Shown piece after piece: positions 9,956-63,800 of a stretch of 64,000 nt of DNA. The position numbers and the translations under genes are program-made. Location of the stretch: positions 868,001 to 932,000 of the forward strand of contig WFMF01000007.1 in the NCBI GenBank assembly GCA_011033025.1, read 5' to 3'. Source of the DNA: Beroe forskalii (taxonomy: Eukaryota > Ctenophora > Nuda > Beroida > Beroidae). Below the pieces are notes generated by a model that was given only the letters and a program-made list of their open reading frames with translations, did not search any database and was not told where the DNA came from. How positions within the stretch are numbered: the stretch's first letter is position 1; each line of letters begins with the position of its first letter.

Positions 9956-12900
9956 CTAAAGTGTTTTCTCGTTCCTAAAACCCTGGTTGAGCGAATTGAC
10001 CCTGCCAGCAGGCCTGTAATTGTAAGTTGACCCCATCAAATTGCTACTACTGCCGTTATTGTAGGGGAAGGAGGTGACAGGCTTGCTGGAAGTCATCACC
10101 GGCTTGAAGGAGGAGGTGGTGTGAGCGTTGAAGAGAGCTGGCGTCTCCTCTTTCACTACTTGGACATTCAGCAGGGTCACGTGTTGCGAGAGCCGGTGTG
10201 TAACCTGAAGACGGAGTGTTAGGGATAAGGGAGAGTCAGAAAGGGAATGCAAATCAGAGAGGCGCAGGAGATTGAGGGGAATCAAAGACAAAGTGGGGGA
10301 TATGAAGGGGAGATTGTAAACGTAGTTGACAATGAGAGTTGACAATTGACTGCTGATTGAAATTATATAATGAAACAACGGTCACTGATCAAGGACTGTC
10401 GTACACTCTTACAGTTACATTACCTCAGCAAAGACTCTCTAACTCTTACCTCAGAAAGAACTGCCTTACCTCAGCAAGTACTCTCTTACCTCAGCATTCA
10501 GCAAGGACTCTCTTACCTCAGCATTCAGCAAGGACTCTCTTACCTCAGCAAGGAATCTCTTACCTCAGCAAGGACTCTCTTACCTCAGGTCCTCAGCAAG
10601 GCCTCTCTTACCTCAGCAAGGCATCTCTTACATCAGCAAGGCATCTCTTACCTCAGCAAGGCATCTCTTACATCAGCAAGGCATCTCTTACCTCAGCAAG
10701 GCATCTCTTACCTCAGTAAGGACTCTTACCTCAGCAAGGCATCTCTTACCTCAGCATTCAGCAAGGACTCTCTTAACTCAGGAAGGCATCTCTTACCTCA
10801 GCAAGGAATCTCTTACCTCAGCAAGGCCTCTCTTACCTCAGCAAGGACGGTTTGTTCGTTGGCGTCTCTCCGGACCCTGACATCCAGTGTTCCCGCCAAC
10901 ACGCCCCACGTCACTGTCCAGAAATGCTCATTCCTGGGGGGCGTGGTGTGAGAGTGACAAAACCAGTGAAAACACGGCAAATATGCCATGAACCTCATGG
11001 CAACAAAAGTTCTTGCACTTACATTATCCGAATAAGAACCGATAAGAAAGTAAAAATATATTTCTAAATCTAAGCAGGATTATTCAGTCAAACTGCTACG
11101 AAAGTATTCATGATATTTCTAAATCTAAGCAGGATTATCCAGTCAAACTGCTCTACCTGAATTCCAGCACACCGTCAAGAGTAGCAGCTTCTCTGAGACA
11201 CTTGTCCAGCGATGCAATGATGTGAGCGGGGGTGGTTTGCAGGAGAACTTTGCTGCAGTATACTGTGGAGAAAAGGAAAGTGTTAGGATGGAGGGGTGGC
11301 GCGGGTGGGAGAGCAACCACTTCTTGGAACTGCCAGTGAAAATGTCATGGGTTCGATTCCCGAAGCTTCGCATAAGTGTACTGATCGTTCGATTGACAGA
11401 CGGCTCGATAAAGCAGTGCAATCTTGATGTACTTTCGATTGAATCTAAGTAAAAGTTGACACGCGAACAGCAAATTTGTGCGTAGTTATGGAGCCCTCTG
11501 TCAATCGAGCGATCTACTCACAGCAAATTCATGCATTTGATCATTACCTGTCATAGGAAGTAAGGTTGCTATGGTGATGAAGCTAATTAGTATAGCAATT
11601 AGTGGATCAGCTCCAGGAAGGTTGTACGATGTAACCAGATAGTAGGAGACTGCCACCCCGAACGAGGATAGACTTGTGATGGTGCTGGTTTAATGTAACC
11701 TGTGAAGGTTGCCTGATAACGCGTTATGGTTGCCTGGTAACGCGTTATGGTTGCCTGGTAGCGTGTTATGGTTGCCTGGCAACGTGTTTAGGTTGCCTGA
11801 AAACGTGTTAAGGTTGCCTATAAAAAACGCGTTACGGTTCCCTGATAACGAGCGTTATATGGTTGCTTACAAACACGTAATATGGTTGTTGGGCATTGTG
11901 CAACCCATTAGGTATGTTTGTTAGATTATACTTTAAACTTGATGGTTCTCACACTCACTTGTCACTAAAGCAAGAGGGTTGAGAGGTTTCCCTGGCAGGA
12001 AGACACCAGCCAAGAGAGGGACGTAGCCGAACAAACTGCTGCCTGGCGGGGAATGAAGTCTCACATTTCATAATTTTCATTTTGCGCTGATTCAACTAGT
12101 TAATAAACATGAAGACATAAACATGAAGTATAAACGATAGAAGTAATCAGCTTCCTTTGAAGATCTCATGATCTCATTCTGAGTAATCTTCTAACTAATA
12201 AAGCAGTGAAAACATTAAATCACCCTGGATTACCGAGGTCGTTGACGGAGTCCTGGACCCAGTTGCTGGGGGAGGCATGGGACAGGTGCTCGTAGGCCGG
12301 GATCTTCACCAGGAAGGTAGCTCCGAAGTGGAGGCCGAGGCCGAAGAGCGTGGCTGGCAGCATGCTGTCAGGCCGAAGAGTTAGGCCTTCCAGGAGGTGG
12401 TGTACCGCCTCCTTGATTATAAAGAAGGAGATGAACTGCGTTAGCAGGGTCGCTGAGAAAGGAGTAAATAAACATGATGAAGAAGGAGATAAACTGAATC
12501 AACATGGTGGATTAATTGATGAGTGTTTGTTGCTGAAATGGGAGTTACTGATTTCAAAAAAAAGGTTTGATCACTGAAAGCCGATTTGAGTTTGGGGGTT
12601 TGGATTAAGGCAATACAATATCAAGCTGATTGATTGACAACAATATACACGACACAACATCCAATCAAGCATGCATTACATCATCTGTGTAAGTTCGTTA
12701 CATGTATCAAGCATTGGCTTCTGCGCCTTGTAAAAACGTTACATTTTCTAATATTAACACAGTGAAACGTAATGTGTATAGGTCGCTGAGAAGACAGCGA
12801 GGACCTCGACTCTTGAGTAACCAAATGTAAAGGTCAGGTTGGGACGCTGCTTTTCAGACCACCTGGGTGTTTAATTGCGTCAAACTCACTTACATAAAGA

Positions 12901-13478: not shown

Positions 13479-14452
13479 TGTGGAGTAGACAACTTCAGAG
13501 AGGGAAATACAGACAGCAGAAAGGGGAGTACAGAAAGTAGGAAATGTAGGCTAGTTCACTGGAAGACTCAGAGAGAGATTATTTGGGGAGTGTGAGGTTA
13601 GTTCACTGGTAGATGCCTAAACTCAGAGAGAGGGGCGTGAAGTTCACACACAATCTGAGGTTCAGGATATATAGCCCAGTCGCTCACTCCAACCAACTTC
13701 AACAAAGGTCTTTGTACTTTATACTCTCTGTAGGTTCAGCAAGTGGATGAAGGTGTCATCATAACAACATCCTGCTCATTTCACATCCTGGGCAATAAAA
13801 CTGTAAATTAAAAGTTAAGAAGAAATTACAAAATGAATTCTTAGTCATTTCGTCAACCGGTTAACTACTATGTATTAGAACAAAAAAAGTAATAGACCAT
13901 ATTTTGATGAGACAATGATACACGAATATATTTATTTCAATAACGTAAATTACTGATTGCAATTAACTGCAGTCTCAACAAACAAGAAATGTGAGTAAAC
14001 TTTTACTCTAGGTTTATACAAAACGTTCATACAAAACGTTTATATTATACAAAAAAGTAAACTGTTTAAGAAATAACGCTCTGAATGTAAAGTATCAGGT
14101 GAATTATATGAGATGAATATATTAACATTCAGATTCACAAAAAGAATTAATATTAATTTAAATTCCAGGAATTTAAGTGGAACCAGGGATATTCCATTTC
14201 GTTCGGGATATCGTTGATAAAACAAAGAAGTGTTCTGTACGATGGTTAAAAACAAATAACGTAGGAAAATTAGCATATGACAAAAATACAAAACATAAGC
14301 AACGAAACCAAGAACGTCACCATGACATGGCCTACATGACAACTAAACTTTGAAACCACCGTGACAACTTAACTTTGAAACCACCGTGAAAAATGTTATA
14401 CCTTGTCACCAAGACAACTAAATATTATCACCATGACAACTATAGTAATAAT
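13479..14452. other. ZnT6-DAXX intergenic region
   Basis: No gene. It contains the ZnT6 promoter side and the DAXX 3' UTR. A minus-strand AATAAA at 13931-13936 is a possible DAXX poly(A) signal. A minus-strand GAGTATAAAGTA near 13720 could be a TATA-type element about 240 bases before the ZnT6 ATG. At about 14320-14445 a loose minisatellite of CACCATGACAACT / CCACCGTGACAACTT units lies just after the DAXX stop codon. Confidence 0.35.
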
Positions 14453-17400
14453 CTAGTTCAGCTCCACAATGTCATCACTGTCACTAGAGCCACTTTCTGT
14501 CCGTGAGTTACTTTCCTCATCTTCCTCCTCCTCCTCCTCATCTTCTGATATATCAACCACTTCATGTGATGTGACGTCATCAGTTTCCTTAGTGACGTCA
14601 TCATCCTGGTTACCGTGGTTACCTCGAGGGGAGGAGGGCTCCATTTCCTGGACTTCATCGTCGAAGATATCCTTGTCAATGAACTCCTTCATAAGCTGCT
14701 TGTTGTCGAACCTGGGGGTTGAGGTGTTTCAAGAAAGAGGGCACCGTGCATTAATTGATTTTGTAACAAGGAAAACTAAATTAGAACGATATTCCGTGAT
14801 CGAGAAGTTAGGAAAATCAGAAAATGCCTAAAAATGCCGTATTTCACCAATTTATTCAATCCAATTTGGTCGTATGAAAGTATACCAATGACCCCCTGCT
14901 GACCCCCTACTGACCCCTACTGACCCCCTGCTGACCCCCCTACTGACCCCCCTACTGACCCCCTGCTGACCCCCTACTGACCCCCTACAGAACCCCTATT
15001 GACCCCCTGGTGACCCCCTGGTGAACCCCTACTGACCCCTACTGACCCCTTTTGACCCCCTGCGCGACCCTGACCCCCTGGAACCCCTGGTGAACCCCTG
15101 GTGAACCCCTTACTGACCCCCACAGTTCCCCCTACTGACCACTTCCTGATCATAATTCTAACATATCATGAATGTTTTAAAGCATTTAAAATAGTACTCA
15201 GCCTTATAATGACGCTTTATTGGTCTGTTTTGCCTCGATCGAGGCACCCTAAACGCACGCTCAAAACATAAACGAGTCAGTTATATTTTTCATGTTCGTT
15301 ATGTTATTCTGTTATTCAAGTCAGTCAAATAAGTCAGGACAGTCACGTTAGTCAAGTTATTCAAGTGAAGTTAGTTCGATTAAGTTATTCAAGTCTGCCA
15401 GGTCAGCCATACGGTCAAGTCAGACAAGTCAATCATATCGGTCGGGTCAGTCCTGGCCCTGTCGTTCAAGACAGTCAAAAGGTCAAAACGGAATAACTTA
15501 ATCGAACTAACTTCACTTGACTGACTTGACCTGACTAACCTGATCGACCTGACCGACCAGACTTACCCGAACGAAATGACTGACATGACTGACATGACTG
15601 ACATGACTGACATGAAATGGATGACTGACATGACTGACATGACTGACATGACTGACATGACATGACTGACATGACTGACATGACTGACATGACTGACATG
15701 ACATTTGACGCAGTATGACTGACATGACTGACATGACAATTTAAACTGACATGACTGACATAGTGACATGACTGACATGACGTCAATTCTTCAACATGAC
15801 TGACATGACTGACATACCTGGTTGACATGACCATGACCTGAGTTCTGAACTTGACTTGAGTGGTTGACTAATTTGGCTTGACTAACTTGACCAACTCCAG
15901 GAAGAACTGACTTGAATTAGACCAACGTGTCCTGTCTTATTTGAGGACTTGAATAACAGAATAACATGAAAAATATAACTGACTCGTTTATGTTTTTGAG
16001 CGCTCAATCAGTCGCCGTACGTCATTATAAGTCAGTGCTATTTTAAATGCTTTAAAACATTCATGAAGAATCAGAAAGGGGTCAATTTTAGAGGGCTCTA
16101 CCAGGGTCAGGAAGCAGGGTCAAGAAAAGTCGCAAAACTAGTTCACTCACCAGGGGTCAGTAGGGTTCACCAGGGGTCATTCTATCAAAATTGATCAGCT
16201 GGGTCAGTATTGAACAGTAAATTTCATTTTTAGTCCGTTTAGCAGGGCTGATTATTCCTAAATCAAGAATGAGCATACCTAACGAACATTTTAGAGCTTT
16301 CGGCCTAATCAAACCTTTCTTGAATGCTCTTCAACTTTTCCTTGGCATCAGTTTTACTCCTCTTCAGCTTCTGTCTTAGGGTTGCATCATCCTTGGCTGG
16401 ATCTTTAGTAGCATCCACCTGATCCATGAGATGGAATCCGCCATCCAACCTGTGGCAAGTTAAGTTGGAATATACGGATCAAATATATCAAAAGTCATGG
16501 ATCAAAAGTGTTCATGTCCTCAAGACTACAACAGGATAAGTTAGGTGTTTCTCAGTGATGACTGACTTCAGTGTCCTGATTTAAAAAGTGGAATCAATGA
16601 AATCACAGCGTCCATTTTTCACGCTATTTGCACTAGGTTGCTTTACCTGAGTTCTGTCTTGCGGTGGTTCTGTATCTGGGTACCAGCATCCAGGAACACC
16701 TGCTTAGCCAGGGTCTTGATCTTAGGTTCCTTCATCGTCATCTTGCACTCCGTTAGACCTCGCTCAATCAGCCGCCGTACGTCCTCTATGTCAGGAAATT
16801 TCTAAGGGAAGAAATGAGGAAATTTCTGAGAGAATATATGGGGAAATTTCGAGGGAAATAAAGACGCAAAACAGTTCTTTTGACATACATCCTATCAAAA
16901 TTGATCACTCGAACAGTAAATATCGCGTCTTCATAGTACACACATGTAGAACTGTAGAAGTTCAGTATTCATGCCCATTCATGTCACCAACACAAACAAA
17001 ATGGAAACTTTTCTTCCCTTCAATCCCACTTAAAAAGCGAATATACCCATCATACACGCTCATGCAAGGTACTGACCTGTCTGGCATTGAGTCTGTCCTC
17101 GATATACTTAGAGAGCTTTGGGATGCCGCAGTTAATCTTTACGTTGAAGCTGTAGTGCACGTTAAGTTCGCCCTGAATCTCCTCCAATTCCCTTAACACG
17201 CTCCTGTGCTTCTTCTTCAGCTTCGCTTCCTGAAGGCAAATGATGCAGTCAGCAAAGGAAGTAGTAGTCAGAGATAGATAAGAGGAAACATACTACCTGA
17301 AAGCAAATAAATAGAGAGCAAACAAAACGATCAGAGACAATATGCAACAGGTTTTTAACATGAAGCCAAAAACGCAAGATAATAGCCCGAGCTGACAAAA

Positions 17401-20400
17401 ACAAATTCGCAGTAAAATCTGCAAAGTGCAAACAGAAACGACAATTTAGTGTTGAGTGTGTATCAACAGTTTACAGTTTGAAAGATTAATCTTGAGGGTA
17501 TCAAGTCTTATATCAAAATTGAAACGAAATACAACCAGGGTCATATTACTTTCACTGGTAATTTTCTAAGCCTAAACATTCCCCAACTCCCTTACCTGGA
17601 GGTAAAGATTGCCCCATTTGTCCATCTCATCGCTGTCCATATCAGCCTCCTGCACTGCTTTGATCCTCCTGGCTAACCGGACCAGTTTCTTACTCAGCTT
17701 CTCAATCCGTGCTATCTTCTCCAAGTAATCCGGGGCATTCTCGTCTACACTCACATCATCTGAAACATCACTATTACCACACTCACATCATCTGAAACAT
17801 TACCACACTAACGTCATCTGAAACATTACCACACTAACGTCATCTGAAATATTACCACACTCACATCATCTGAAACATCAGTATTACCACACTCACATCA
17901 TCTGAAACATTACCACACTCAGGCCATCTGAAACATCAATATTACCACACTCAGGGCATCTGAAATATCATTTTCATGAGCCGCTAAGTCGCTACGTATT
18001 AATAAATTTAAAGGATTTGACAGACTTGAAATTTCTAAAACAACAGAAATAAGGAAATAGGCGATAAGGATTGATTCCGCATACCTTCGCTCCCGGACTG
18101 TTCTTTCTGCTCGGCAGGAAATTCCAGGCGTTTTGAGGAACAAGGTTGGTCAGAGAATGCTGATGCAGCTTTAGAAACCGGTGAAACGGATGAGATGAGT
18201 TGAACTCTTTTAGGCGGGCACCTCGAGCTATCATCTCCAGAGTTTTCTCTCTGTTTGGAGACGCGTTCTTTGCCGGAAGGGGGTTGCTTGGGAGCAGAAA
18301 GTGTTTCCTTGGTGACAGATAGTGTTTTCCTGGCAACGGAAAGTTTTTCCTTGGTAACAGAGGATGGGAGCCTCGAAAACTTGGCAGGTTTTGCTACAGG
18401 AGAATCAGACAACACCACTGGTACTCTCTTAGCCGGATCACCTGGTTCCTTTTCTGAGCAAGTCTTTGAGGCATGTTCTGAGGAATTCTTGTCATCTATT
18501 GATATCTCTACATACCGAACGGTAGATTCTTTGACTGACGTTATCATGCACTCATTTGATAGTTCCTCAATGAACTCCAATGAAGGTTGAGAAGATGGTT
18601 TTGGCCTCTGGTGCCTCAATGAACTCCAGTGAAGCTTGAGAAGATGGGTCAGCAGGTACCGGAGGTTCCTCAGCATCTTTCTCAATATTAAGGCCTGTTG
18701 TTATTACCTTCTCAGGGCATTTATCATTCTCTGCTCTGTCGTTTAAGGAATTGATAATTTGGACCTGTGATTTCTGGGGTGTAACCACATTGTCACAATT
18801 CTCCGTGTCAGGATTCTCCTCATCATTTGTCTCAGACTCTGGTGTGCTCTCTGCCATGTCGACTTCAGGAACCTCAGGAGATTCTAATCTTTCCTCCATA
18901 TCAACATCCAGCACAGTAGGCACATCAGTCGAATCCATCACTTCATCACTAAGGGCCGTGTCTTCAGACATCTCCACATCTTGGTTTTCAGAGGATACCG
19001 CTCCAGTGACCTCCATGGCACTTTCAACAGTATCCTTTTCAGCACCATTTTCTGATGTCAAGTCGTTTCCCTCAACGTTAGTTTCAGAAATCAATATTCC
19101 TGTTTCTGGTAGATCATCGTCTAATGACTCATTGAGCTCTTCCTGGTCACTTTCCTCTTTTGAGGCCTTTTCAGTACAACTTTCTAAAGATACAACTCCA
19201 GTTCCACAATTCGCTTGTGAAGCTGTGTCCTCAGCAGGGGATTCAATCGCGGATTCGTCGGTTACATCCACTTTGGCACTGACACCGGTGTCACTGGTCT
19301 CATCAGTCACCTTATTTTGGCTACAACAAATGGCGTCCTCATTCACTTTGTCACTGATACCGGTGTCACTATTAGGAACAGACTCATTAGTTTGAGCTTC
19401 TGAAGAAAGCTCTGTGGTTGGTTTTAGGTTTGACGGCTCCAGCGGACTGTCTGTATCAGCAGTGGATTCAATGGAACTTTTTGAAACCTCAGCATCTGGC
19501 CTGACATTCTCAGCATTTTCCAACAAGTTCTGATGGTTATCGGTGGATTCAGGTGCTATCCCGATGTCAAAAGAGGGTACAGTCCGATCAGATTTATCTG
19601 AAGGTTTGGAATCATCGGCGGGTTCAGATAAAGTTTCCGATTTGCTGTCTGACCCAGGATCGTTCGTTGGGAATGCTATGATGCTGGAACAAAGTGTCGG
19701 TGACAGCAAATTTGACTGCTTTTGAGACTCCCTGAAAAAAAAATGTATGAGGAAAATTAATCGAAACCACAAAGTTTGGGAAGAGTACCATGTATGAAAT
19801 TTAATTCGTGATAAATACAAGTACCCGCAACGGCCCACACTACAGCAAATACAACACAAATACATCCATTCAATTTACCTTGAATCTGGCTCCTTTTCCA
19901 AGTCAACAACATCAGTACTGCTTTTAGACCGACTCTTAGAACGACTCAGTGAGACTGTAGCGTTCTTTGGTTTAGACTCACTCCTCGGTTTAATGAAAAC
20001 TTCCATACAGTCCCCCAGACACCGTAACAGGCTGGTTTTGTAGGACTTACTCTGGATCCCATCTCCCGTGTCTTCGACAATGTCACACTTGGAAATCATG
20101 GAGATGATGGTTTCCTTCTGGGCGTTGCTCGCACTGAAAACATTCGAGGCATTTGGACATGGATCAATGAGGTCTACAGTCTACACTTCATAAGAAGTAA
20201 TTGTTATAGTTGAATCAAAATAATTCTCAAAGTTTATTTGTTATTGATATTCTCTTATCATACAATCAACTTAATTTGTCACCATACTTAGAGAACTTCT
20301 TGACGAACAGCTCCACCGTTGGTCTCCGACTCTCAGGCAGAACTCGGCACAACAGCCGCTTAAAAAGCGACACCATAACAAAGTCCGCCAGCAGGAAAGT

Positions 20401-26345: not shown

Positions 26346-30290
<3,945 letters not shown>

Positions 30291-33984: not shown

Positions 33985-35511
33985 ATGACTAAAAGAAAAA
34001 AGATCAAAGTTCACCTTACTAGGACAAGTTTACCATCAGAACTTCTTGAGGAGGCTTTATCAGAAATTGATTTTAAGGTTGATATTGTTGAATCATCTTT
34101 TTTACTAGCTGCTCACAGTAAAGTTAAATATGATCTTTTATGGTGTGGCTGTGATACAGAAGATGCCTTGCCAGCAACATTTCAAAATAGAATTCCTGCT
34201 ATAAAATTTGTGTGCAGAAAGGGCCCTCTATGCCAGTTAGTTAACTTAATGCAAGAGCTTTTCCCTGGAGAATTCTCATTTATGCCTCTTTCTTGGCCCA
34301 TTCCTAGTCATTATGCAGAGTTTTGTCATTATGCATTTACACTGAAAGGATCTTCTAAAAATTCCCAGTTTTATATACTAAAACCAGATGAAGGATCTCA
34401 AGGTGATGGTATCTATCTGTTCAAGTCTCCTACAGACATCACACAAGGGACATTATCACGAAATAGTGTTGTCCAAACATACATTCATAACCCTCTTTTA
34501 ATTGATAATTTTAAGTTTGACTTCAGATTATATGTTCTCATTGCCAAACTAGATCCTCTTGAAGCATATATGTGTAAGGAAGGTTTAGCACGTTTTTGTA
34601 CTGAAAAATATCAGAAGCCAAGTCATAAGAATATTGGTAAGGCATACATGCATCTTACAAACTATTCTTTGAATAAGTATAGTGCTGAATTTGATAGATC
34701 AGAACAAGATTATCTTGGATCTAAGCGCACAGTGTCCTCAGTGATGAAAGCATTAAAAATGAGTGGTATTGATACAGATAAAATATGGGCAAGGATTGAA
34801 GAAGTTGTTTTCAAGACACTGATCTGCATTGCTCCACTGACAAAAGTAGAACAACTCAATATAGAAAATTTCCAAGTCAACACCTCACAATACTTTCACC
34901 TTCTTGGTTTTGACATTTTAATAGATCAAAATCTTAAACCATTTCTTTTAGAAATCAATGGGTTTCCAAGCATGCGAACTGATAGTGAAATTTATGATAG
35001 CTTAATGAATAAAACAACTATTCCAAGCCCTGTTGATCAAAAAGTCAAAAAGATAGCCCTTAAAGGAGCTTTACATATCCTTCTGAAAAACTGCACTGAT
35101 GATTCTTATTGCCCTATAATCCAGCCACCTCTCTTAGAAGGAGAGAAGAAAAAGTATCTCATTTTTGAAGATTGCTGTCAATTATTCACATTATTTATCA
35201 AAAGGTCCAGCCTCCGTAAAGGATCTCTGCTTGGATCATCAGGATTCCGCACATTTGTCAGAACATGTAAAATCTTGCAAATTGTCAGAGGTATAACCAA
35301 TGCTGATATGGACCTTTTATATATTAATGTTTGTCAACAAAGTGACTGTAATTCTGGAAAATGTTTGTCATTTATGTCATTTTATAGGATTCTTTTAACA
35401 TTATCAACAAAAACATTTCCTGAGGATACATTGGTTGCTGGGCTCAGGAAATTTGTTGATGCTTGCTTCAAAAACTATTCACAAACAATGAAAATAACTG
35501 TTGCCAGGTAA
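33985..35511 (+). CDS. Tubulin tyrosine ligase-like polyglutamylase, intronless
   Basis: TTLL enzymes use an ATP-grasp fold to ligate glutamates to tubulin tails. This 508-residue ORF has the full set of signatures: KPDEGSQGDGIYL (133-145), KFDFRLYVLI (177-186), EGLARFCTEKY (199-209), MHLTNYSLNKYS (222-233), GSKRTVSS, then GFDILIDQNLKPFLLEINGF (308-327). The closest groups from memory are TTLL6/11/13-type polyglutamylases. The C-terminal ~115 residues (about 395-508) carry no ATP-grasp motif and look like an EF-hand/p25-alpha-type helical module. The whole CDS is one exon amid intron-rich neighbours and has AT-rich codon use, so a retrogene origin is likely. No poly(A) tract was seen, and a CATGAATTACAG acceptor-like word 20 bp upstream leaves a 5' UTR intron possible. 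The ATG at 33985 precedes a basic KRKK stretch. Confidence 0.85.
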   Translation: MTKRKKIKVHLTRTSLPSELLEEALSEIDFKVDIVESSFLLAAHSKVKYDLLWCGCDTEDALPATFQNRIPAIKFVCRKGPLCQLVNLMQELFPGEFSFMPLSWPIPSHYAEFCHYAFTLKGSSKNSQFYILKPDEGSQGDGIYLFKSPTDITQGTLSRNSVVQTYIHNPLLIDNFKFDFRLYVLIAKLDPLEAYMCKEGLARFCTEKYQKPSHKNIGKAYMHLTNYSLNKYSAEFDRSEQDYLGSKRTVSSVMKALKMSGIDTDKIWARIEEVVFKTLICIAPLTKVEQLNIENFQVNTSQYFHLLGFDILIDQNLKPFLLEINGFPSMRTDSEIYDSLMNKTTIPSPVDQKVKKIALKGALHILLKNCTDDSYCPIIQPPLLEGEKKKYLIFEDCCQLFTLFIKRSSLRKGSLLGSSGFRTFVRTCKILQIVRGITNADMDLLYINVCQQSDCNSGKCLSFMSFYRILLTLSTKTFPEDTLVAGLRKFVDACFKNYSQTMKITVAR

Positions 35512-39800: not shown

Positions 39801-42800
39801 GTCTGCATTCTGTATCATGTCACTACAGCACCATGTCGAGTGTCATATATTAAGCTATTATCTCGCCACCTGAACTCAGTGTGGTTTTGTCGAGCTCACA
39901 ATCAAGAGATTAAGTTTCTCTTTGTGGGCAATCAGCGAGGATTTTTCATGAACACAATGCAAAGATTTATAAACTTATAAATCTAGTGGGTACTGCTTAA
40001 ACTTGAAGAATTAAATGCGATTAAAAGCAATCATTTTGGTATTTGAAAAGAAAAACACGGCCTACTAGCTTCGTGACACCCTTTCCATAACATAACAACT
40101 GAGTCTTCCCCATCGATTTTTAGATCTACTCCCACACTAAATAAAACCTTGCATTAGAGGTTACCTCCCACACACCAGTAATTCAGTTTATTCCTCTCCG
40201 AGCGTTATAACACCCCACCCCATCCCACCAAATTACACCCATCCCTCACTCCCACAGTATAACTGTATAACATCCCTTCCCTCCCCACATTATAACACCC
40301 CATCCCCACAGTATAACACCCCCTTCCCCCGCAGGGAGGTAGGGGAGCTATGTAACGAGTTACTGGGGTCCCTGCAAAGTGTCGTGTTGGAGCGCCCCAT
40401 TCCTTTCCCACAGTGTAGTACCCCATCAGTCCCCACTTCCTCGTCCCGCAGGGGACTTACAAAGTATTTGCAAAGTATTTACACAGTACTTCATGAGAAA
40501 TACATCAGAGCAACCCAGGAGAGGGACGACTATCTGGATGCTCAGGTCAGTACTTACAAAAGTCAGTAATTTGTAAGCATGGATGGTTGGATGTGTCGTG
40601 GCCCTCAAGTCCCCGGAAAATGTTATTTGTAACATGGGTGCCCCTTCTGTCCCTTTTTGTCAACTTTTCTACCCCCATTTTTTCCTTTTGGCTCAAAGGC
40701 ACGTCCGCCTTTTAGCATTACTTTTATTCAGAATATGGAGATATTTTGATAAATTTCACTTATATCATTTTAGACCGTTACGTGAAGGTATAACATGTAG
40801 GTATGTTTTTGACCCACAAGCCTAACTGACGATTATTTTTGTGAAGCAATGATCACTCGACACATTCTTTTGAAAATGTATTCTACGAAGCTATGAACAG
40901 CACTTGAACTGGACATTTCATGTTTGATTCGGTTGGATTCTTCAAATTTTTGCGTTGCTCTTTCTTGAATTGTTCCTTGAGTCCTGATCTCATATTCTTC
41001 GAATAATTTAGTGAGACTTTCCTTTGTGATAATCTTAGATTCAATGATTTTGATGCAAATTTTATCACTGTTCAAGTAACACTCACCCTTTACAGTCCGT
41101 GATTTAATGCAACAAACTTTGTACTACATCAGACGTTTTTTCAGAATCTAAAGCCTAGTGCAGTTGTTTGTTAGACTAGCAATGATTCACTGCTCTAGGA
41201 ACCCATAGACATATAAACACGACTTTAATGTGTCAGTGGGTACCAAGTATATCTGCACATCATATCTGACGTTCAGTCCATCCCTGACTGGATTATTTTA
41301 TTCACAGGTCACTTTGACCAATCAGCAAGCGACTTGATTGTCAGCTTCCGTGCTGATTGGTTAACATCGATTTAGGGGATACCATGGGTAAGCTAATAGC
41401 TGTTATAATAAACTGCTAATATTAGACCAGGCCGAAGTCTGTTGCAGCCTGCCGGTGAGACTAGCCGACACGCACACAAATTAACATGAACAAATGTTCC
41501 TAATATTGCAACACCTACCAACGAGAACACAAAAAGACATATACAAATCATCAACTCAGAGTTTGGACACACATCTTTAAGTGCCAAAGATGAATAATTG
41601 GTGATTTTGAAGACCTCAACTTACCGATCTAACCCCTGAATTTGACATCATTCGGACTAACTGTTTGAGTGTGTGGCCTTATTTACACACAGCCACACAT
41701 TTAACACAGCAGTTACAACAATTGAGGGATGTGGAATTTTAAAGGATTGAGTTTCGTTAATCCGAGCCTTACCAACCGTGAGTTTGTATGAGAATAATAT
41801 TAATACCGCACATGTTATGTGTATACCTATTGCGAACATTGTCCCACGTCAAAAATTGGCAAGACTATTTCCAGGGCTCCCCATGAGGTAATTTTCAATG
41901 CTCATGGTCGACAATGTTTATTTACTCCATGCTACTATTCCTACTGAGTATTTACGCCATATAATAGAAACTACGAATAACATATAGTGGGACCTGCTAA
42001 TGTTGATAATTTGCAGCTAAATGGTCACTGGCCATTGTGGCATTTAAATACTGACCAGACCATATAATATCAAAAGCACAGTTGTTGGACGATGTACTTA
42101 TTTTGCGGGAACTATAAAACCCAGAAGATTGAACTATCGGTTGAATGTTTTATGGAAATCGATCATTTGTTTACTTGTTTGTCTCCCATTTCCTGCTGTA
42201 CATATATGTTTGAAACATGAACGGTAAACAGAGTTAGGTAGTTAGACTAGGTTCCTGTTTTCCTGTACATACATGTAGTCCTAAACCTCCCGCGCGCGAA
42301 AAATAGGCGGTTCAACGTCTTCAACTTACTACGTTTCGCTATAATAATGACGTCATCTTAACTGCCCATATTTCTCTCGCGTACTAAAGAAGTAGTAGTT
42401 CTAATGGATCTAAAGAAGAGCAGTACCGGCTGCTTTCAGAAGAGCACAATGCCATGGTTGTGCTGTAAGGCCAAGCATAACACACTACAGACTCTAGGTC
42501 GTAGCTTGGTGGAACAAGCATGTCAATCAGGCTAAATTCATAACAGTTGGATCCATGGTTTTTGGAAAGATTGTTAAGGTGATAAAAAGGAATTTGACAA
42601 GATCCAAAAACGGAGTCTTCCGGGAATATCTAACCTGGGCTGTGCCCACTTGAACCGTTGGAAACTGTTGAATGGTGCTTCTGTGTATGTTTCCACCCGA
42701 ACTTATTTTCCTAAATGTAAATACTAAATGATTATTTGATACCTCAGTTGAATGCTTAGAATGCTATTGAGTCAATGTATAAAATGTATAATGTATCTAT

Positions 42801-51800: not shown

Positions 51801-54800
51801 ACCACTTAATGTTCGTGGTTAACAAACGTAATCAAATCATGCACAATTGCAGTACTGAAATTAATATGACCAAAGATAGATTTGTGACCCTTTTGCGCGT
51901 ACTTTTTTCAAAGCATATATAATGAGATTGAAAGTTCTCTCCTGGAATTTTTCCAAGTTTGTGGCATGAATGGTTAGAGAGAGCATAAGGTTTTGTGCTC
52001 TGAAATGCTGGCTTTAATCCTCGGTGTGTGTTAACTAAATATGTGCTAATGATTAATTGAGTAAGTCCTGGGTTTTGATCGGTTGTCTTCTCAAGTTGAA
52101 TCACCATGAAACCTGCGTTATTTATGGCTGCAATGTCAAACAGAAATCACTGAAATTTAAAATTTGGTAGACGATAGTATTTTTCATTCCCAAACCACTC
52201 TTTTTCACCCTCACTCCCCCAGTCCCTCATCCCCACCCCTCTTACACCTTCCCTTTCCCCTCAGGCTGCCAGGAGCGGTAGACGCAGTACTGTCAGCAGT
52301 CTGAACGATTGTTCGTTCAATGACACCCGGTCTGAGGCCTCCTCCCGTCCCACCACCCCCGGGTACTCCACTGAGATATCCGAACTGAGGAGCAAACTCC
52401 TGCAGTACGAGGAGGAGATGTGAGTTGATTGTTTGTTTGTTTGTTTGTTTGTTTGTTTGTTTGTTTGTTTGTTTGTTTTATAAGCTAGAATCATTCCATG
52501 TCACTCATAACATTACAGCATTAATCAAACACAAGGAAACATTTTGTACTAAAGAATAGATTGCTTCGGTTCGCCAATAGAACAAATTGATGGTGTTATC
52601 AATCATTAACGATCAAAATTTATCCTTAAGGGGTGCTTTACTAAGCACCCACAGGAGATACAAAATAAACATTCTACGCATTGTAATTGGGTGTAATTGT
52701 CATAATCGATTTTCCTAATCAGAGTCAACTGAGTGAATTGTTAGAACTGTCTAAAACTGGTTCAATAGTGCTCAAATGTACAAAAGATAAAATTGTCAAA
52801 GATTGTAAATTAAGGTTTCAAATTGATCTATGAGCTGCTATATTGCGAACACAGTCTGTAACTGTTTATGCAGTCCAGAAACCTTTAAGATTCAGGATAA
52901 ACTGATCATACTAAGAATCCAACGAATTCACTGCTACAGAGGTTGTGTATTATCTAAGCCTAAGATTTACACTCCAGCTCTTGATTGTTCTAGCAATGAT
53001 ATCATCTGAAGGTGTGGATTAGCGGTTATGATTGATGCTTGCTGCAGAACGTTGCAATCAAAATACCACCACAAAGCGAATCAGTTTTGCGTGTGTTTGA
53101 TAACATCCAAGTAGTATAAAAGTGGTGCAACTTTATCGGAATTAAATTTTACCTTCTGCCGGCGAGCAAAACGTTAAAATTATTCCATGCTGCAACTGAT
53201 TTAAATAGAGTTTACATGCGAGTCGCTTGGTTGATAATCACTTGGCAGACTAGAGAGGGACCTAAGTGTACCAAGTGTACCAAATTATGCGATTTGGTAC
53301 AAGTGTATATTACTCGAAAACTAGTGGTCACATTTTGATGAAACTTTCCAGTTATCTCAAGCATGACCCAGAGAACATAAAAACGTCAAAAAACTAGGGG
53401 GTCTATATGCTAACTTACGAGCTATATTCATTTAATTCAAACACAAGGAAATATAATTTTAGCGATTTTCACAGTATTTTGGTACAACGATTACTCGAAG
53501 ACTAGTCGTCACATTTTGATGAAACTTTCCAGTTATCTCAAGCATGACCCAGAGAACATAAAAACGTCAAAAACTAGGGGCCTATTTGCTAACTTACGAG
53601 CTATATTCAAACACAAGGAAATATAATTTTAGCGATTTTCACAGCATTTTGGTAAAACGATTACTCGAAAACTAGTCGTCACATTTTGATGAAACTTTCC
53701 AGTTATCTCAAGCATGACCCAGAGAACATGAAAACGTCAAAAAACTAGGGGGTCTATATGCTAACTTACGAGCTATATTCAAACACAAGGAAATATAATT
53801 TTAGCGATTTTCACAGTATTTTGGTACAACGATTACTCGAAAACTAGTCGTCACATTTTTGATGAAACTTTCAGTTATCTCAAGCATGACCCAGAGAACA
53901 TGAAAACGTCAAAAAAACTAGGGGTCTATATGCTAACTTACGAGTTATATTCAAACACAAGGAAATATAATTTTAGCGATTTTCACAGTATTTTGGTACA
54001 ACGATTACTCGAAGACTAGTCGTCACATTTTGATGAAACATTCCAGTTATCTCAAGCATGACCCAAAGAACATAAAAACGTCAAAAAATTAGGGGGTCTA
54101 TATGCTAACTTACGAGCTATATTCAAACACAAGGAAATATAATTTTAGCGATTTTCACAGTATTTTGGTACAACGATTACTCGAAAACTAGTCGTCACAT
54201 TTTGATGAAACATTCCATTATCAATTTCCACAGTATTTTGAGAACATAAAAACGTCAAAAAACTTCTATATGCTAACTTACGAGACTATATTCAAACACA
54301 AGAAATATAATTTTAGCGACGTATTTTGGTACAACGATTACTCGAAAACTAGTCGTCACATTTTGATGAAACTTTCCAGTTATCTCAAGCATGACCCAGA
54401 GAACATAAAAACGTCAAAAAACTAGGGGGTCTATATGCTAACTTACGAGCTATATTCAAACACAAGGAAATATAATTTTAGCGAATTTCACAGTATTTTG
54501 GTACAACGATTACTCGAAGACTAGTCGTCACATTTTGATGAAACTTTCCAATTATCTCAAGCGTGACCCAGAGAACATAAAAACGTCAAAAAACTAGGGG
54601 GTCTATATGCTAACTTACGAGGTATATTCAAACACAAGGAAATATAATTTTAGCTAATTTCACAGTATTTTGGTACAACGATTACTCGAAGACTAGTCGT
54701 CATATTTTGATGAAACTTTCCAGTTATCTCAAGCATGACCCAAAGAACATAAAAACGTCAAAAAACTAGGGGGTCTATATGCTAACTTTCGAGCTATATT

Positions 54801-57800
54801 CAAACACAAGGAAATATAATTTTAGCGATTTTCACAGTATTTTGGTACAACGATTACTCGAAAACTAGTCGTCACATTTTGATGAAACTTTCCAATTATC
54901 TCAAGCGTATTCCAGAGAACATAAAAACGTCAAAAAACTAGGGGTCTATATGCTAACTTACGAGTATATTCAAACACAAAAACCGAAATATAATTTTAAG
55001 ATTTCACAGTATTTTGGTACAACGATAACTCTGAAACTATAATAGTCACATTTTGATGAAACTTTCCAGTTAAGTCAAGCATGACCCTAAGAACATAGGG
55101 TCTATGTGCTAACTTACGAGCTATATTCAAACACAAGGAAATATAATTTTAGCGATTTTCACAGTATTTTGGTACAACGATTACTCGAAAACTAGTTGTC
55201 ACATTGTGATGAAACTTTCCAGTTTTCTCAAGCATGACCCAGAGAACATAAAAACGTCAAAAAACTAGGGGGTCTATATGCTAACTTACGAGCTATATTC
55301 AAACACAAGGAAATATACTTTTAGCGATTTTCACAGTATTTTGGTACAACGATTACTCGAAAACTAGTCGTCACATTTTGATGAAACTTTCCAGTTATCT
55401 CAAGCATGACCCATAAAACATGAAAACGTCAAAAAACTAGGGGGTCTATATGCTAACTTTCGAGCTATATTCAAACACAAGGAAATATAATTTTAGCGAT
55501 TTTCACAGTATTTTGGTACAACGATTACTCGAAAACTAGTCGTCACATTTTGATGAAACGTTTTCATGTTCTTAGGGTCATGCTTGACCTAACTGGAGAG
55601 TCATCAAATTGTGATGACTAGGCAGTTAGTTTTCGAGTAATAGTTGTAAAAATACTGCGAAATCGCTAGAATTATATTTCCTTGTGTTTGAATATATCTC
55701 GTAAGTTAGCAAATAGACCCCCTGTCGTTTCATGTTCTCTTGGTCATGCTTGAGATAACTGGAAAGTTTCATCAAACGACTAGTTTTCGGTAATCACTAA
55801 AAATACTGTGAAAATCGTTGTAAAATTACCAAAATTTGAATATATCTCGTAAGTTAGCATATAGATTTTTCGACTTTTTATGCTCTTCGTATTTGACTAA
55901 CTGGCGCTTTCATCAAAATGTGACGACCTTTTCGTTTTTAATCGTTGTACCAAAGCATACTGTGAAATAGCTAAAATTTATTCCTTGTATTTGAATATAG
56001 CTCGTAAGTTAATCGTAGACCCCATAATTTTTTGACGTTTTATGTTCTTCGGGTCAAAATTATAAAGTTTCATCAAAATGTGACGACTAGTTTTCGAGTA
56101 ATCATAGCACCAAATACCGTGAAAATCGCTAAAATTATATTTCCTTGTGTTTGAATATAGCTGTTAGCATAGCCCCTAATTTTTCCCTCCCCATTGACCT
56201 TTTGTGAATACAAAAGGCAAATGAGAGGGTTGGCAGAGATCGTGGTTTGGGAAGGTGAGAAATACGATATGTGTATATCAGGTCCAGGTTTGCAATACAA
56301 CTACTGTAATTTCCGGAAAGTGCCCGGAAAATGGAAGTGGCGTAAATTCGTCATAAAAGTGGCGTAAATTCGTCATAAAAGTGGCGTAAATTCGTCATAA
56401 AAGTGGCGTAAATTCGTCATAAAAGTGGTGTAAATTCGTCATGCAGTCGAGTCTCCTAGCAACTCTTACATTTGCGCGCGCACAACGCGCGCGCAAACGC
56501 TTGCGCAGGTGTGAGATTGTTGGTGTAAGTTCGTGCGCGGCGCTCTTAGTCTTAGTAAAATGGCCAAGGTCGGTTTAATCAACCAGGCCGGTGGCAGCCA
56601 TGCAGAGCATAGAGACTTCCCTATACACTAGGCCAAGGGTGCGAACTCCTAGGTGGTTTTAGGCCACCCGACTGCCGGGTTATATCCTGAGCTGAGAGCA
56701 GAACCCAGTCCTGGACCACACAGGTCTGGAATTCTACCAACGCCCGTGGCTTCAAACAGACTGCAAAGCAAGTCAGGGGCGTGCCTGCAGATTAGGTCAG
56801 CTATCAGCTGAAGGTGGCTATGTACCACCTCCCTCCAACTAATGATGCACGAGATGGTCTGCATCAGTAGTCTGAAAACATAGAGTCCCTTCTGTTTTGA
56901 CTGCACAAAGATGCAGCTTCAGCCAGGTACAAAAGGGCATAAACCCAGCCCAAAGAGTTAGTGGCTCTTTGGAGACCAAATAAGAAGTAGGTAGAAGTGT
57001 GTATTTTGGGATGTTGTATTTGGTTTTATTTATCAGGATTTCATCTTCTTGCTTTCTTGGAGATATGGGCTCTGTAAATTGTGGGATTTTATTGAAGCAG
57101 GCGGATTTTGTGAAGAATTTTGTTGTTTTGTGCAGGGTTGATGATAGTGGCTGCTTAGAGTTAATTACGTCTTATAGTTTAATATTATGGTCTTGGAAGT
57201 GGTAAATTATCTGTAGGGAGAAGGCTGGACATTCTTCTAGAATGTGCATTGCTGTCTCATCCGGGCAGAAAACGGGGTCAATTCCACAGTTTTGTAAGTC
57301 ACAGTAATCACAAAGAGGATCAAGTGCCATATTCAATCTGTGTAGGTGACTATTGAGGTTATTGTGTCCAGTAATTATTTTGAGAAGGATGCATAGATTT
57401 CTGTTGTTAGTTTTATTATTGTGTAGCTTAGTTAGATAAATATCAAGTTTCACTTTACAATGGTTATTTGCCCTGTCTAGTATTCGGTGTGGAGGGAGAT
57501 GTGTGTTGGCGTTTATTCTAACGTTTTGGCCAGTCAAGCTGGCGCCCTAAAGTGAGATGAGTGAGTGAAATGAAAAAGCCAGGAAAGAAACGAGTTGACC
57601 CCCCTGCTCAGAACCTGATCAGGAGGGTCTACCTGGGGTGCTCTGCCAGGTAATCACTGTGTATTAGCCTGCCTTGACAACAAATGAATGGCAGTTACCG
57701 CCACTCACCACGGGAGGGACCCATACTGTCTCGGACTCACCATCTTCACTGGGTGATGAGACCAGGGTGCAGCCGCAGCTTCAAGGGTGCGAGAACAGTA

Positions 57801-60800
57801 TGGGGCACTGGGTCTTACGGATGCCGTGACCAGACTATGGCAACCCAGCTACACAGTATACAACATACACAGGAGAACAGTGTTCCTGTGTACGAGGGTG
57901 CATTGGTTGTGAAAAGGAACAATGCACGAGTGGCCGTGCGCGGCGCTGTTTAAGTCCAATTGGACTTAAACGTGCGCGGCGCTGTTTAAGTCCAATTGGA
58001 CTTAAACAGCGCCGCGCACGAACTTACACCAACAATCTCACACCTGCGCAAGCGTTTGCGCGCGCGTTGTGCGCGCGCAAATGTTAACAAGCCACACGAA
58101 TAACGATTTCCGGATTTCAGTTGAAATAATTATGTAGAGCGTCCAAGAAATGTTAATTGAGAATCGAAGCAAAGATCATGATAAATATTGAAAAGTTTTC
58201 CACAAAAATAGTTTCCCTCTTAGCATTCTGTTTCAGCAGAGGGCCCAGCGTTTGCACCGCGCACTCCAGCTTGTAGCTCCGAGAAAATTAAGCGGCTTTC
58301 CCATGAGCTACTGAGCTCTGAGCCAAACACTCACTCTGGCACACTGCTCTCAGTGATACAATCACTCGTTAGCGTTACGCATTTTCGTCGATCGTGATCA
58401 TATACCTCTAGCTGGGGGAGGGAAATTAAGCGCCTGCATACGGGAACAATGGACAAGGAATGTGCCGGCAGGCGCAATTCTTGTTTGAAGTTGTTATGTT
58501 CTTTGGGTCATGCTTGAGACAACTGGAAAGTTTCATCAAAATGTGACTACTAGTTTTCGAGTAATCGTTGTACCAAGATACTGTGAAAATCGCTAAAATT
58601 ATATTTCTTTGTGTTTGAATATAGCTCGTAAGTTAGCATATAGGCCCCCTAATTTTTTGACGTTTTTATGTTCTTTGGGCCCTGCTTGACCTGACTGGAA
58701 AGTTTCATCAAAATTTGACGACTAGTTTTCGAGTAATCGTTGTACCAAAATACTGTGAAAATCGCTAAAATTATATTTCCTTGTGTTTGAATATAGCTCG
58801 TAAGTTAGCATATAGACCCCCTAATTTTTTGACGTTTTCATGTTCTCTGGGTCATGATTGAGATAACTGGAAAGTTTCATCAAAATGTGACGACTAGTTT
58901 TCGAATAATTGTTGTACCAAAATACTGCGAAAATCGTATTTTGTTACAGATCATACACCGAGTTTTCCGCAGTATTCTTGGTACACTTTTGATTTAGGTC
59001 TTAGTGGCAGACTACATTTTCTTGAACTTCGCGTAACGCGCGATGCGAAAGTTACGGGCATCTGCGATTTCTTAATGCGCAAAATTTGAATTTTCATTTA
59101 TTTTGAACATATTCTGAGCACTCGCATATTTTATTTTTTATGCTTCGATTTAAATTTGAGAATCCCAACCAATTTGAGTGCAACATGCAATGAATTCCAG
59201 CGTTAAGCAAACGAGCCCAAAAACGCGCAGTTCTGGTTTTTGTACAATCATAATGGAACTATAATCAATTCAAAGTTTCCCGCGGTAACTCGAAACCATA
59301 GCTATAATCTTGGATCATATAATACAATAGTGTTTTGTATTGTTTGATGTGTTATTGTTTTACAATTGAATTAGAAGTAATGTGTGAATTACATTTCAGT
59401 GAAACTAAGACAGTCCAGATAAACCGACTGAGAGAGGAAAACTACTCATCGGCAGAACAGATTGTGCGTCTTAAAAACGAGGTAATATTCTTGAAATGGA
59501 GATAATTTAAAATATTTAAGGAATTTCAGTGTTTTAGTGTCACCCTCGTGTCTGGTGCCGTACAAGCCTTTGCTGGTTTTCCATGCAGGTAGATCCATGC
59601 ACAGATCATGACGCAGTACTTGTGTTTTCAGTTGAAATTTGATCGCTATATTATTCTGTATTTAATACACTCCATGGCCCTTTGATTGCTCAATGATCAC
59701 AATCTTTATACGCATTCTATGAGTACATCTCTGTGTATCTTCAGATGTGGCGTATTTCCAAACCAGTCAATAGTGCATAGTCAATACTTCAATAACTTTT
59801 ACATCTTCTTGACACTTGACATCACTTAGTCTACTGGCAACACTTGGCATCTTTTCGTCGCTAGACATCACTTGACAGCACTTTGACACTTTAAATCACT
59901 TTGACACTTGACATCACTTTGACACTTGGCACCACTTTTTCACTTGACATCACTTAGTCTAGTGGCAACACTTGGCATCTTTTCGTCGCTAGACATCACT
60001 TGACAGCACTTTGACACTTGACATCACTTTGACACTTGACACCACTTTTTCACTTGACGTCACTTAGTCTACTGGCATCACTTGGCATCTCCTCGTCACT
60101 TGACATCAATTCATCGCAGTGCCGCACGCTGTATGACGACGCACAGTCAGCCCGCATATACCGAGATGAAATCGACGCACTACGGAGTAAAGCAGAGAAA
60201 CTTGACAAGTACGAGGCAGACATCGCTAAATACCGGGATAAGCTCGAGGATATGGAGTATCTGAAGAACAGGGTGAAGGAACTGAAGAGCCACAACGATC
60301 AGTTGGCGGAGATGAACGAGTTGCTGAAGGGAGAGCTGAGGAGTAGCGAGCAGATCAGCAAGGCAATGATAGGTGAGTGGGGAGAGGAGTGAGGGGGGGG
60401 AGCAGATCAGCAAGGCGATGATAGGTGAGGGGTAGGGAGTGAGAGGGGAGGTGGTGACTGGTGAGGGGGTGTCCCGGTGGTTGGTAAGAGGAAGAGTGGC
60501 ACGAGCAAGGTAAATAAGGAGAATTTCCTATATATTTGAGTTGCTAAGAACTTCGTTGTTAGTGCTTTATTTACTTTCAGCCGAAGAGGAGAAGAACATA
60601 AAGCTGAGAACAATGTTGGAAGAAGTTGGAAGTCAGAAGGAGTTCAGTGAGAAAGTTATCCATGATCTGAATAACAAGAAGAACCAGATAGAGCTTGAAC
60701 TGAGGCACAGGTTAATAGAGGCACAGGTTAATAGAGATTCTCTTTCATGTGCATAACGTCTATTCTATAATTATTGAAGATTTCGTTATGAATTAAGGTG

Positions 60801-63800
60801 CAGTGTACGTTTTTGTTCTTGTAAGGCTTCGTTTGAACTAATATCACTTATAAAGTTATACCAATAAATTACGGCAAAATTGACCATAGCAACAGCTATG
60901 GTAATATAAACGAAGATAGTAGGATATCTTTTCATGCCTTATTTTTTGTTGGAATGTTTAATACACTATCGTGCATGTTTTCCGGAATTTGGCGCATTTT
61001 AACTGAATTCCTACCCTTGGGACTCCCCAGTGCGAACATGGTGCGGCATATGCAGAAAGAGATTGACGAATTGACCGCCTCCAACAATGAGACGAGGTCA
61101 GTGTTGGTCAGGAACAGTCGCAAGACAAATAAGCCGAATAGGCACTGTTTCATCATAATAATTATCAGCCAAGCTGGAAACGATATTTTGCTTTTTGAGA
61201 CATTCATGGTTCATAATTATACTGTTTAAATTGACGTTCAGACACAGTTTCCTCTATTTTCGGATTGAATTAAGCCTCGATATTCTACTCAATATTCTCA
61301 GTCGATCATCTGTGTATCGTGTATATCTGATCGGATCGTTTATATCTAATGGTGTATATTGTGTGTATAATGTACTAATGTATACCTGATCGTGTATGTA
61401 TCTGAAGCACTCTTCGTTCTAGGTTAGCTCTTCTGGAGCGGGACGGAGAGACGGGAGGGGTGGCGTTCTGTGTGTCTGCAGAGACCGAACTGTCGCAGGA
61501 CGACCAGGGACAAACTCCCATGATACACCGGCGGCGGAGTGAGTTTAACAATGGATTAGCATTTATATTAGCAACAATCATGAATCAACCTAGCATTAGC
61601 AACATGGCTTATTTAGCGTGGTATTTGTTGATTGTATTTTGTAACGAACTCAATCCAGAAATCTAGGCAGTAATCTTAGTGAATATCATGATATTTTGAA
61701 AGCATTACATATTCTAATCTCAAGCACCGCACTGCAGGTACAATAAAAGCTGGTAGTAACGAGGATCCTAATATGGAAGTCCTGAACAGTAAGATAAAAC
61801 GTCTTGAAGTCGACAACCTGCACCTTCGAACACAGAATGAAACGCTTAAAAACACCAACGCACGGTTAAGTTGACCTGCATAATGGCGAATTGCCAAGTT
61901 TCAAAACACTTTGAATGAATTGCAACATGAATCCCAGCGCAGAACATCTGCGAATATTTTCCTTTCTTTGATCTCACTGATTTGTTTTCCAGTTACAAAG
62001 GTTTGAACAATGTACAGAGAAGGACAAGTTGGTGATTGACACAAACAAAGCAGAGATTGCCAAGCTTCAAGATGAAATTCTGTTAGAGGTTGGTATCACT
62101 GATTGATTATATAAAATGCGCGTCTATGTTATTAATCCCTTCGTCCATTGTTGTTGCATGTGTACACATATATGGGTGAAACTCAATGGAAATCCCCCAG
62201 AAAACCAAGGTGGATAACGTACAACAGAAGATGGAGGAAGCCTACTCAATCCTGAAGGAGATGGGATACGATACTGAGAAACTTAGTGAAGTCAACGTTA
62301 TCAGCGATAAAGAGTAAGTGGATGGAGTTTCCTTCCATTTAACATGATGCCTGGCAATTCTTTATCAGTTTTTAGACCGCCATGAAGACCTTAAGGGGGC
62401 TTAGTATTTGATTTTTGAAGAAATTTTCCTGTAACTTCTGCTGTCTTTCTGGCTTACTCTTCGATATAGATACCGAGAAAAAAAACCCGCGATGGGGTAC
62501 CACTAAGGGCTTTAATCCACCACTTCACAGGAAGTTCCTGAAATACGAGGAGCGGTTGAAGGAGAGTATGAACCACTCGATAAAGATGAAGGAGGAACGG
62601 ATAGCTGTCCTGGAGGACAGAGTCAAGGAGAACACTTGCCAGAACGATATCCTGCGACAGGAACTCTCCATCATCAAGGGACAGAATAAGGATGTGAAGA
62701 AGCACAATAGGAGTCTGCAGGAGAGTCTGGATGCCAGCATTACGAGGTTAGTGTTTTTAACCTCGTTGTAGGTAGGGCGATGGTTAGAGTGATCATGATT
62801 TTGTTGTATTTCCTGTTTCCTGGAGTTGGACAAAAAATCATAGGACAAAAATAATAACCCCTAATCCCCCGCTTATAACGCCTCATCCCCTCTAATAACC
62901 CATCGCTCCCTCTAATAACTCCGTCACTCCCCCAGTAACCAAAGTGCCACGCCGCCCACTCGTCGCATCAGTAAGGGAGTACAGTATGAGCACCATGTGT
63001 CAATGTCCTCTACTCCCATCAAACAGAGACCTTCTCTAGTCGCCATGACATCGCCAAAGATAAACATCAGCTCGATCAAGGAGGGTCAAGCAGCTAATGC
63101 GTCCATGAATAGCAATATTCTCAGCTTCGAATCGTAAGTCTGTTAGTTAGTATCTAGGGATGTGCTTCAATATTGAGGAAATTCAAGAGGACAAAATAGA
63201 CAGTAAACAGAACCACTCTAAATATCCCAAAATTACATTTATGGTAACTTCCATTTATGGTAACTCCGAAAAACCCCGGATAAATCTGCACTGATGGTGC
63301 CCTCCCCAACTTGATGACATCACTCACTCGTTTGCCATATACGGTGCCCTTTCAGTTTTCTGAACTGAGGTATCAAGTAAAACTAAATTGCAATGATAAG
63401 GCATTCACCAAGGAGACACGGACCTGAGCGTAAGGAAATTTTTAATATAAATACACTGTCTTTTGGACTATAAAATACTGAGGTAATAGCCAAAGATTGT
63501 AAAGGTCTTTTAAACGGTGCCTCGTTATTTAGTTGTACTGAGATCTGTAAGACACGCATTTATAAATTGATAAAATTCCTTTTTTGGAGATAAAAATTCA
63601 GACTGCAGTTGGAACAGCCAAGATTAATATAGTTTCATTTAAAAAACACGCGTTATTCAGTTGGTACAGATACTCTTTGTGTTCTGGTTGCAAATTTCTA
63701 CCTGCTGTAGTTCTATTTTCTCTCAAAATAATTCAGGAGCTGCAGTTGACTGTTTCCAAGGTACCTTGTGGAGATACAGAACCTCAGAGAACACGCCATG

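Follow-up and report, generated by a model that had tools for sequence, protein, structure and literature searches.

Minisatellite arrays that span exon–intron borders in genes of the ctenophore Beroe forskalii

The window analysed here, a stretch of 64,000 nucleotides from Beroe forskalii (contig WFMF01000007.1, positions 868,001 to 932,000; positions below are counted from its first letter), carries four neighbouring genes, ZnT6-like, DAXX-like, MAP2K4 and CCDC88-like, in which tandem repeats run across exon–intron borders. The identity of MAP2K4 is firm as judged by protein comparison: among the best 120 of 2306 matches, a Bolinopsis microptera protein is 85% identical over its full length, the next reaches 78%, and the other 118 reach at most 63%. 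The names ZnT6, DAXX and CCDC88 are tentative, drawn from the labels of the initial annotation, likeness to known sequences, and weak or sub-cut-off Pfam matches. The CCDC88-like gene has a HOOK coiled-coil match just under the cut-off (33.8 bits vs 35), the DAXX-like gene has a DAXX_hist_bd match further on (20.2 bits vs 27), and the ZnT6 peptide scanned gives no Pfam match.

The five main repeats of the initial annotation are recovered by Tandem Repeats Finder (TRF), and each unit consists, as that annotation had read it, of a piece of its own exon together with the adjoining splice site (GAG/GTAAGA, CAG/GTAAAT, TTTCAG/ATGATG, TAG/GTGAG, and CAG/GTTAAT; the slash marks the border; Table 1). 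The four weaker cases listed beside them are not confirmed as junction-spanning. With a 20-bp word laid across each junction and a match of at least 16/20 sought within 1.5 kb, the word does not recur at the ZnT6 boundaries 11684 and 12452 or at the CCDC88 boundaries 62935 and 40452. Repeats do adjoin the acceptors at 11.7 and 62.9 kb, and at 40.2 kb the intron repeats sequence that resembles an acceptor. Close to 12452, a short piece of exon reappears in the intron 58 bp away.

The two donor-type arrays of ZnT6 and MAP2K4 form ladders of near-identical splice sites, as the initial annotation had expected; in each, 15 additional donors match or exceed the authentic one in strength. Along the ZnT6-like array lie 15 further GAG/GTAAG sites, 14 of them equal to the authentic GAG/GTAAGA (10.1 bits) and one reading GTAAGG (10.9 bits), with two GAT/GTAAGA sites besides; the exon seeding the array continues in frame into the exon at 10204, VTHRLSQHV (..VLAE/VTHRL). 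In MAP2K4, the 15 further CAG/GTAAAT donors score 8.8 bits, as does the authentic CAG/GTGAAT. In this intron 83% of positions are repeated, the final recognisable repeat piece lies about 40 bp from the acceptor, and the Bolinopsis protein P0121 reads IDPAPGRDGFDV across the array junction.

The DAXX-like gene shows the corresponding arrangement at acceptors. Around the acceptor TTTCAG/ATGATG at 17759 the junction word recurs seven times, and the exons join in frame, without stops, across the array. A second, shorter array, which the initial annotation had missed, surrounds the acceptor at 16801, whose junction word also recurs, with acceptor-like sites at 16801 and 16825. An intron of the same gene holds an element at 15160-16070 (L040) with inverted ends (49 bp, 92%) and 9-bp minisatellites inside; a relative on contig C159 has ends that are about 95% identical. 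In the CCDC88-like gene, the exons at the donor 60372 join in frame and without stops.

Table 1. Arrays, duplications and associated exons in the window.
Feature	Position	Strand	Description
ZnT6-like donor-type array	10418..10850	-	~20-bp unit CTTGCTGAG/GTAAGAG(A); TRF 10443-10848, 19 copies
ZnT6-like exon seeding the array	10837..10933	-	ends ..RDANEQTVLAE/; donor at 10836
DAXX-like acceptor-type array	17747..17970	-	~26-bp unit TTTCAG/ATGATGTGAGTGTGGTAATA; TRF 6.7-7.8 copies
DAXX-like acceptor-type array	16793..16857	-	24-bp unit; TRF 2.8 copies
MAP2K4 donor-type array	26690..27840	-	61-bp unit; fills most of the 1113-bp intron; TRF 26878-27773, 14.8 copies
MAP2K4 exon	27803..27974	-	donor ..IDPAP/G at 27802
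CCDC88-like two-copy donor duplication	60345..60448	+	52 bp, TAG/GTGAG; TRF 60348-60448
CCDC88-like two-copy donor duplication	60702..60736	+	16 bp, CAG/GTTAAT; donor 60710; GAG at both ends
Array adjoining ZnT6 acceptor	11696..11848	-	21-bp unit; junction word not repeated
Acceptor-like intron repeats upstream of CCDC88-like exon	40235..40452	+	21-bp unit; junction word not repeated
Array adjoining CCDC88 acceptor	62852..62932	+	20-bp unit; junction word not repeated

Repeated junctions are frequent in the genes that could be read. Homology, reading frames and splice consensus guided the manual placement of junctions, a codon-bias gene finder having been dropped for its too weak coding signal; the 57 junctions of the window and the 23 of the flank therefore represent readable genes and not every gene. 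Of the 57 window boundaries, 6 are loosely placed (they lack GT or are shifted by at most 3 bp), and some doubt attaches to the acceptor at 11684. The flank sample is the 30 kb to the right of the window (932001-962000 on the contig), outside the view of the initial annotation, with two readable genes, CCDC88-like and XPO4-like; the left flank (40 kb) and 30 kinase loci lie outside the junction sample, and the repeats of the right flank were already visible while its junctions were being placed. The junction word recurs at 6/57 junctions in the window and at 5/23 in the flank, which gives 11/80 when pooled (5/39 donors and 6/41 acceptors), and none of the 80 reversed words of the control recurs. 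Both 5' and 3' borders are thus affected, as in the arrays named mirages in amphioxus.

In the flank, the CCDC88-like gene has one acceptor duplicated to two copies and another in an array of about 27 units of 72 bp. The XPO4-like gene adds arrays at an acceptor (34-bp unit) and at a donor (59-bp unit), together with a further acceptor duplicated to two copies. The XPO4-like label is based on an IBN_N domain and on tblastn with human XPO4, and the exons join without stops across the array junctions. Part of this gene is present a second time in inverted orientation (76611-81884 and 84994-92173 in the window frame, 84–90% identical). The two are diverged copies and not alleles, and their donor array differs in length, with 6.7 TRF copies in one vs 2.8 in the inverted one.

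Across the arrays found, copy number runs from two to more than 60 in many genes, where the initial annotation had seen stages from two to ~20, and arrays reach about 3 kb. The units are 16 to 72 bp long and unrelated: among 18 units compared, common matches occur in 11/153 pairs, are only 10-12 bp long and fall mostly in the splice consensus. A single spreading element, which the initial annotation had already denied, does not fit these units. An introner or other mobile element, which would place the same sequence at many sites, was considered and rejected, as the ZnT6 array region gives one match in the genome (the search passes over very common words) and the 18 units share only those short words.

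The structure is also met elsewhere in the 216 Mb genome (1134 contigs). Three CAGGTAAG words in a row match 467, 279 and 711 times in three spacing ranges that partly overlap, vs 48, 18 and 45 for the word read backwards, with single words at 6031 vs 4967; matches overlap and large arrays dominate, and so the triple totals are not counts of arrays. Among the matches listed, 17 arrays were read from 19 places (C122:286k and 313k are twins, and a second C216 array has the unit of the first), and 9 of these 17 span an exon border. In an MCM5 gene, positions 1-59 of the 59 of MCM5_C are read across the array junction, over the cut-off, and in a C2H2 zinc-finger gene zf-C2H2 likewise crosses it over the cut-off. 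An HCF-type kelch gene has Kelch_1 over the cut-off and Kelch_HCF at E 1.9e-14, below its 113-bit cut-off, for a peptide with six extra residues; an alternative acceptor gives the cleaner join PRP-RHGHRAVAI. A 29-bp acceptor unit on C216, present in 65 copies, combines a TATTAAC-like stretch, pyrimidines and CAG with the first bases of its exon. The KSR-like kinase (weak Pfam, E 0.019) and a cathepsin-like exon (no Pfam match) carry labels given by eye, a cysteine-rich exon (TNFR_c6, E 0.05) and the C209 exon are without a real label, the exon at C110:619k is probable only, and the C343 array adjoins an acceptor, with an RWD match just under the cut-off. No exon is seen at 7/17 arrays (C122:286k, C159, C165, C175, C229, whose edges were not reached, C247 and C562). 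The main cases are thus real, and the structure is present in many genes.

In four genes, MAP2K4, MCM5, HCF-type and zinc-finger, the conserved protein or domain reads through the exon-proximal site, so the conserved protein needs that site. Use of the exon-proximal member is therefore indicated for these four and would be expected by extension in the rest. The inner sites of the ladders are not visibly purged: GT is intact in 18/19 (the ungapped ZnT6-like copies), 13/14, 64/65 and 4/5 copies of four arrays and AG in 27/27 and 65/65, and in five of six arrays the splice dinucleotide is conserved at least as well as the mean of the other unit positions. Two exon ends lack the GT of a donor. The ZnT6 exon end at 12785 reads CAG/CGACC, without GT, and its five bases are the start of the next exon (12786-12862, 12452); at the L063 exon end, the first 12 bases of the next exon stand in place of GT. 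Such ends look like the trace of RNA-based polishing, or else like a very odd intron. If the L063 end is such a trace, it is direct evidence that the first L063 copy is the spliced one.

These arrays are probably ordinary minisatellites of the mirage type, whose birth happened to overlap a junction and was tolerated. A short tandem duplication, arising through slippage during replication or through end-joining at short direct repeats, would by chance overlap an exon–intron border in a genome whose introns abound in minisatellites. A short end repeat is present in one of four two-copy duplications (GAG at 60702, by exact extension), and the slippage step is for this reason an inferred one. The array would afterwards expand and shrink like any other minisatellite, a step for which the differing copy number in the two diverged copies of the XPO4-like gene is the evidence. 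The further copies would fall on the intron side and leave the protein unchanged while the spliceosome keeps the exon-bordering site; tolerance would follow from this retention, and, where the exon-proximal choice is reliable, arrays could persist as nearly neutral.

The initial annotation had gone further and proposed a recurrent process that duplicates splice junctions; recurrence in many genes stands, and a process specific to junctions is weakly supported, with an event excess of about twofold and no excess per base. In the version closest to this proposal, junctions would be preferred birthplaces, and transcription or splicing itself would start the duplications, by way of R-loops, a paused polymerase, or short repeats within the AG/GTRAG and pyrimidine-AG signals. 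Ladders of the donor word exceed the backwards control 10-16 times while the single word does so only 1.2 times, and more than half of the arrays found by pattern lie on exon borders; these totals are matches and not arrays, and a donor word by construction finds donors. Counted per base, the adjoining intron and the junctions are repeated at similar rates. In the window, 25.8% of all intron positions are repeated, and about 12% of those lying 10-100 bp from a junction, vs 10.5% of junctions; in the flank, the intron values are 21-41% (41% beyond 100 bp from a junction) vs 22% of junctions. Among 161 array units (227 kb), donor-like words number 6 vs 4.2 expected at the strict cut-off, which is not significant, and 19 vs 9.4 at 7 bits, a number that 0/60 random draws reach; acceptor-like words number 5 vs 8.3. 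We regard such preferred birthplaces as unlikely on this balance.

The positions near a junction are covered by the same arrays as the junction, and events, identified throughout by one procedure, were therefore counted besides bases. The event test covers 33 introns (24 in the window, 9 in the flank) with both ends placed and ancestral intron lengths assumed; introns with unplaced ends, such as the one preceding the 75819 acceptor array, are left out, and a two-copy repeat may be counted twice. It replaced an earlier test on a hand-made list (6/16 vs 2.0-2.6, P 0.003-0.017), in which junction and interior cases had been found by different means.

Three points weigh against an origin by accident with tolerance. 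In the event test, 10/33 repeat runs span a junction vs 4.64 expected under blind placement (P 0.0075; window 6/25 vs 3.06, P 0.063; flank 4/8 vs 1.58, P 0.041). The excess is about twofold on small numbers, and blind placement may not explain everything. In an XPO4-like array of five copies, GT is kept at 0.90 vs 0.98 at other positions. Furthermore, bench work suggests a frequent preference for the intron-proximal one of two identical donors, which would break the proteins discussed here. Junction targeting is accordingly possible and weakly supported. The bolder proposition, that junctions are true duplication hotspots in ctenophores (and amphioxus), with about 1 in 7 self-repeated through a transcription- or splicing-linked mechanism and with the spliceosome picking the exon-proximal site among up to dozens of equal ones, is tentative and has a modest chance of being correct. 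Under it, such genes would serve as natural experiments on how splice sites are chosen and would supply material for new introns.

The arrays could instead record the birth of introns by tandem duplication of an exonic AG/GT. This model of intron gain goes back to Rogers 1989 (cited in PMC3087553) and has been proposed for amphioxus globins. The heavily repeated MAP2K4 intron, in which repeats approach both ends, would suit it. The arrays read hold one of the two junctions, for which expansion is a better explanation than the origin of introns, and the ctenophore copies, while sharing the duplicated proto-splice site with Rogers-type gain, lie inside existing introns. We consider birth by this route very improbable here. 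It is harder still to credit that the ladders are functional, making alternative proteins or tuning splicing. Their sites are intact and of roughly equal strength; unit length is divisible by 3 in 5/20 units entered, with about 7 expected by chance, and thus gives no excess of frame-keeping units, the 18 units have little in common beyond the splice consensus, and in four genes the conserved proteins bypass the extra copies. Local assembly errors are likely, as one array that runs into a low-quality stretch (L068) and the ZnT6 12785 and L063 ends show, but more than 20 arrays of different, internally diverged units on many contigs, with two-copy cases that fit within ordinary reads, make an assembly artefact, by collapse, inflation or RNA-based polishing, scarcely credible as a general cause.

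Other repeats and genes were also noted. A 172-bp satellite of 13 copies occupies 53309-55559, with an apparent reverse-complement 172-bp unit at 58484-58936 (TRF). At 1940-2731, repeats of 18 and 12/24 bp lie within an open frame that begins like a secreted protein, and more short-period repeats precede the window, at about -6.6 to -1.9 kb. Many similar kinase genes (such as L009 and L014-L019) hold the full domain in one exon, which suggests a family expansion; the family may be PIM-like. In addition, a single-exon tubulin-ligase gene at 33991-35508 has, among the best 120 matches listed, eight relatives at 58-89%, followed by TTLL11-type animal proteins, including Branchiostoma, at 33-45%.

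Splice sites inside minisatellite units are familiar from a few other systems. Turri and colleagues reportedly described, in 1995, a minisatellite of the human IFI6 (6-16) gene in which each tandem unit carries a 5' splice site; the donor-bearing units are shared with the ctenophore arrays, whereas in IFI6 several donors are said to be used and a single gene is concerned. In human segmental-duplication genes, tandem repeats at exon–intron boundaries can create new introns or splice forms, according to the part of PMC2812944 seen. These are likewise minisatellites on exon–intron borders, and the ctenophore arrays seem instead to keep the old splice form. The ctenophore literature consulted, mostly open-access and including the parts seen of the Hormiphora genome paper (PMC8527503), contains no report of junction-spanning repeats.

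The closest likeness is to the mirages of amphioxus, which have the same structure and thereby answer the view of the initial annotation that no such class had been described. In the passages available (PMC3087553, PMC3902484), mirages are named in Adh3, troponin C, the globins BflGb6 and BflGb9, and PGBD5 (60- and 108-bp repeats). They affect both borders with units of 10 to 160 bp, are unstable in copy number, with somatic instability reported for Adh3, are reported to be spliced normally, and are viewed as a possible route to new introns. As there, the ctenophore arrays are minisatellite-like units spanning 5' and 3' exon borders, and many units keep AG or GT (six arrays here). Unlike there, the host is a ctenophore, many genes are affected as judged by pattern, arrays extend to about 3 kb and can exceed 60 copies, and 11/80 sampled junctions are repeated, a density that those passages do not mention.

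The structure is thus a known one, newly found in a ctenophore, a very distant lineage, and the host and the density are new. Mirages are therefore no oddity of amphioxus but occur also, and apparently commonly, in a lineage whose divergence from chordates lies at or close to the root of the animal tree. Ladders of equal strength whose exon-proximal member gives the right protein offer ready tests of the choice between identical sites, bear on the contribution of tandem duplication to the growth and birth of introns, and warn that gene predictors and assemblies may misplace exon ends in such genomes.

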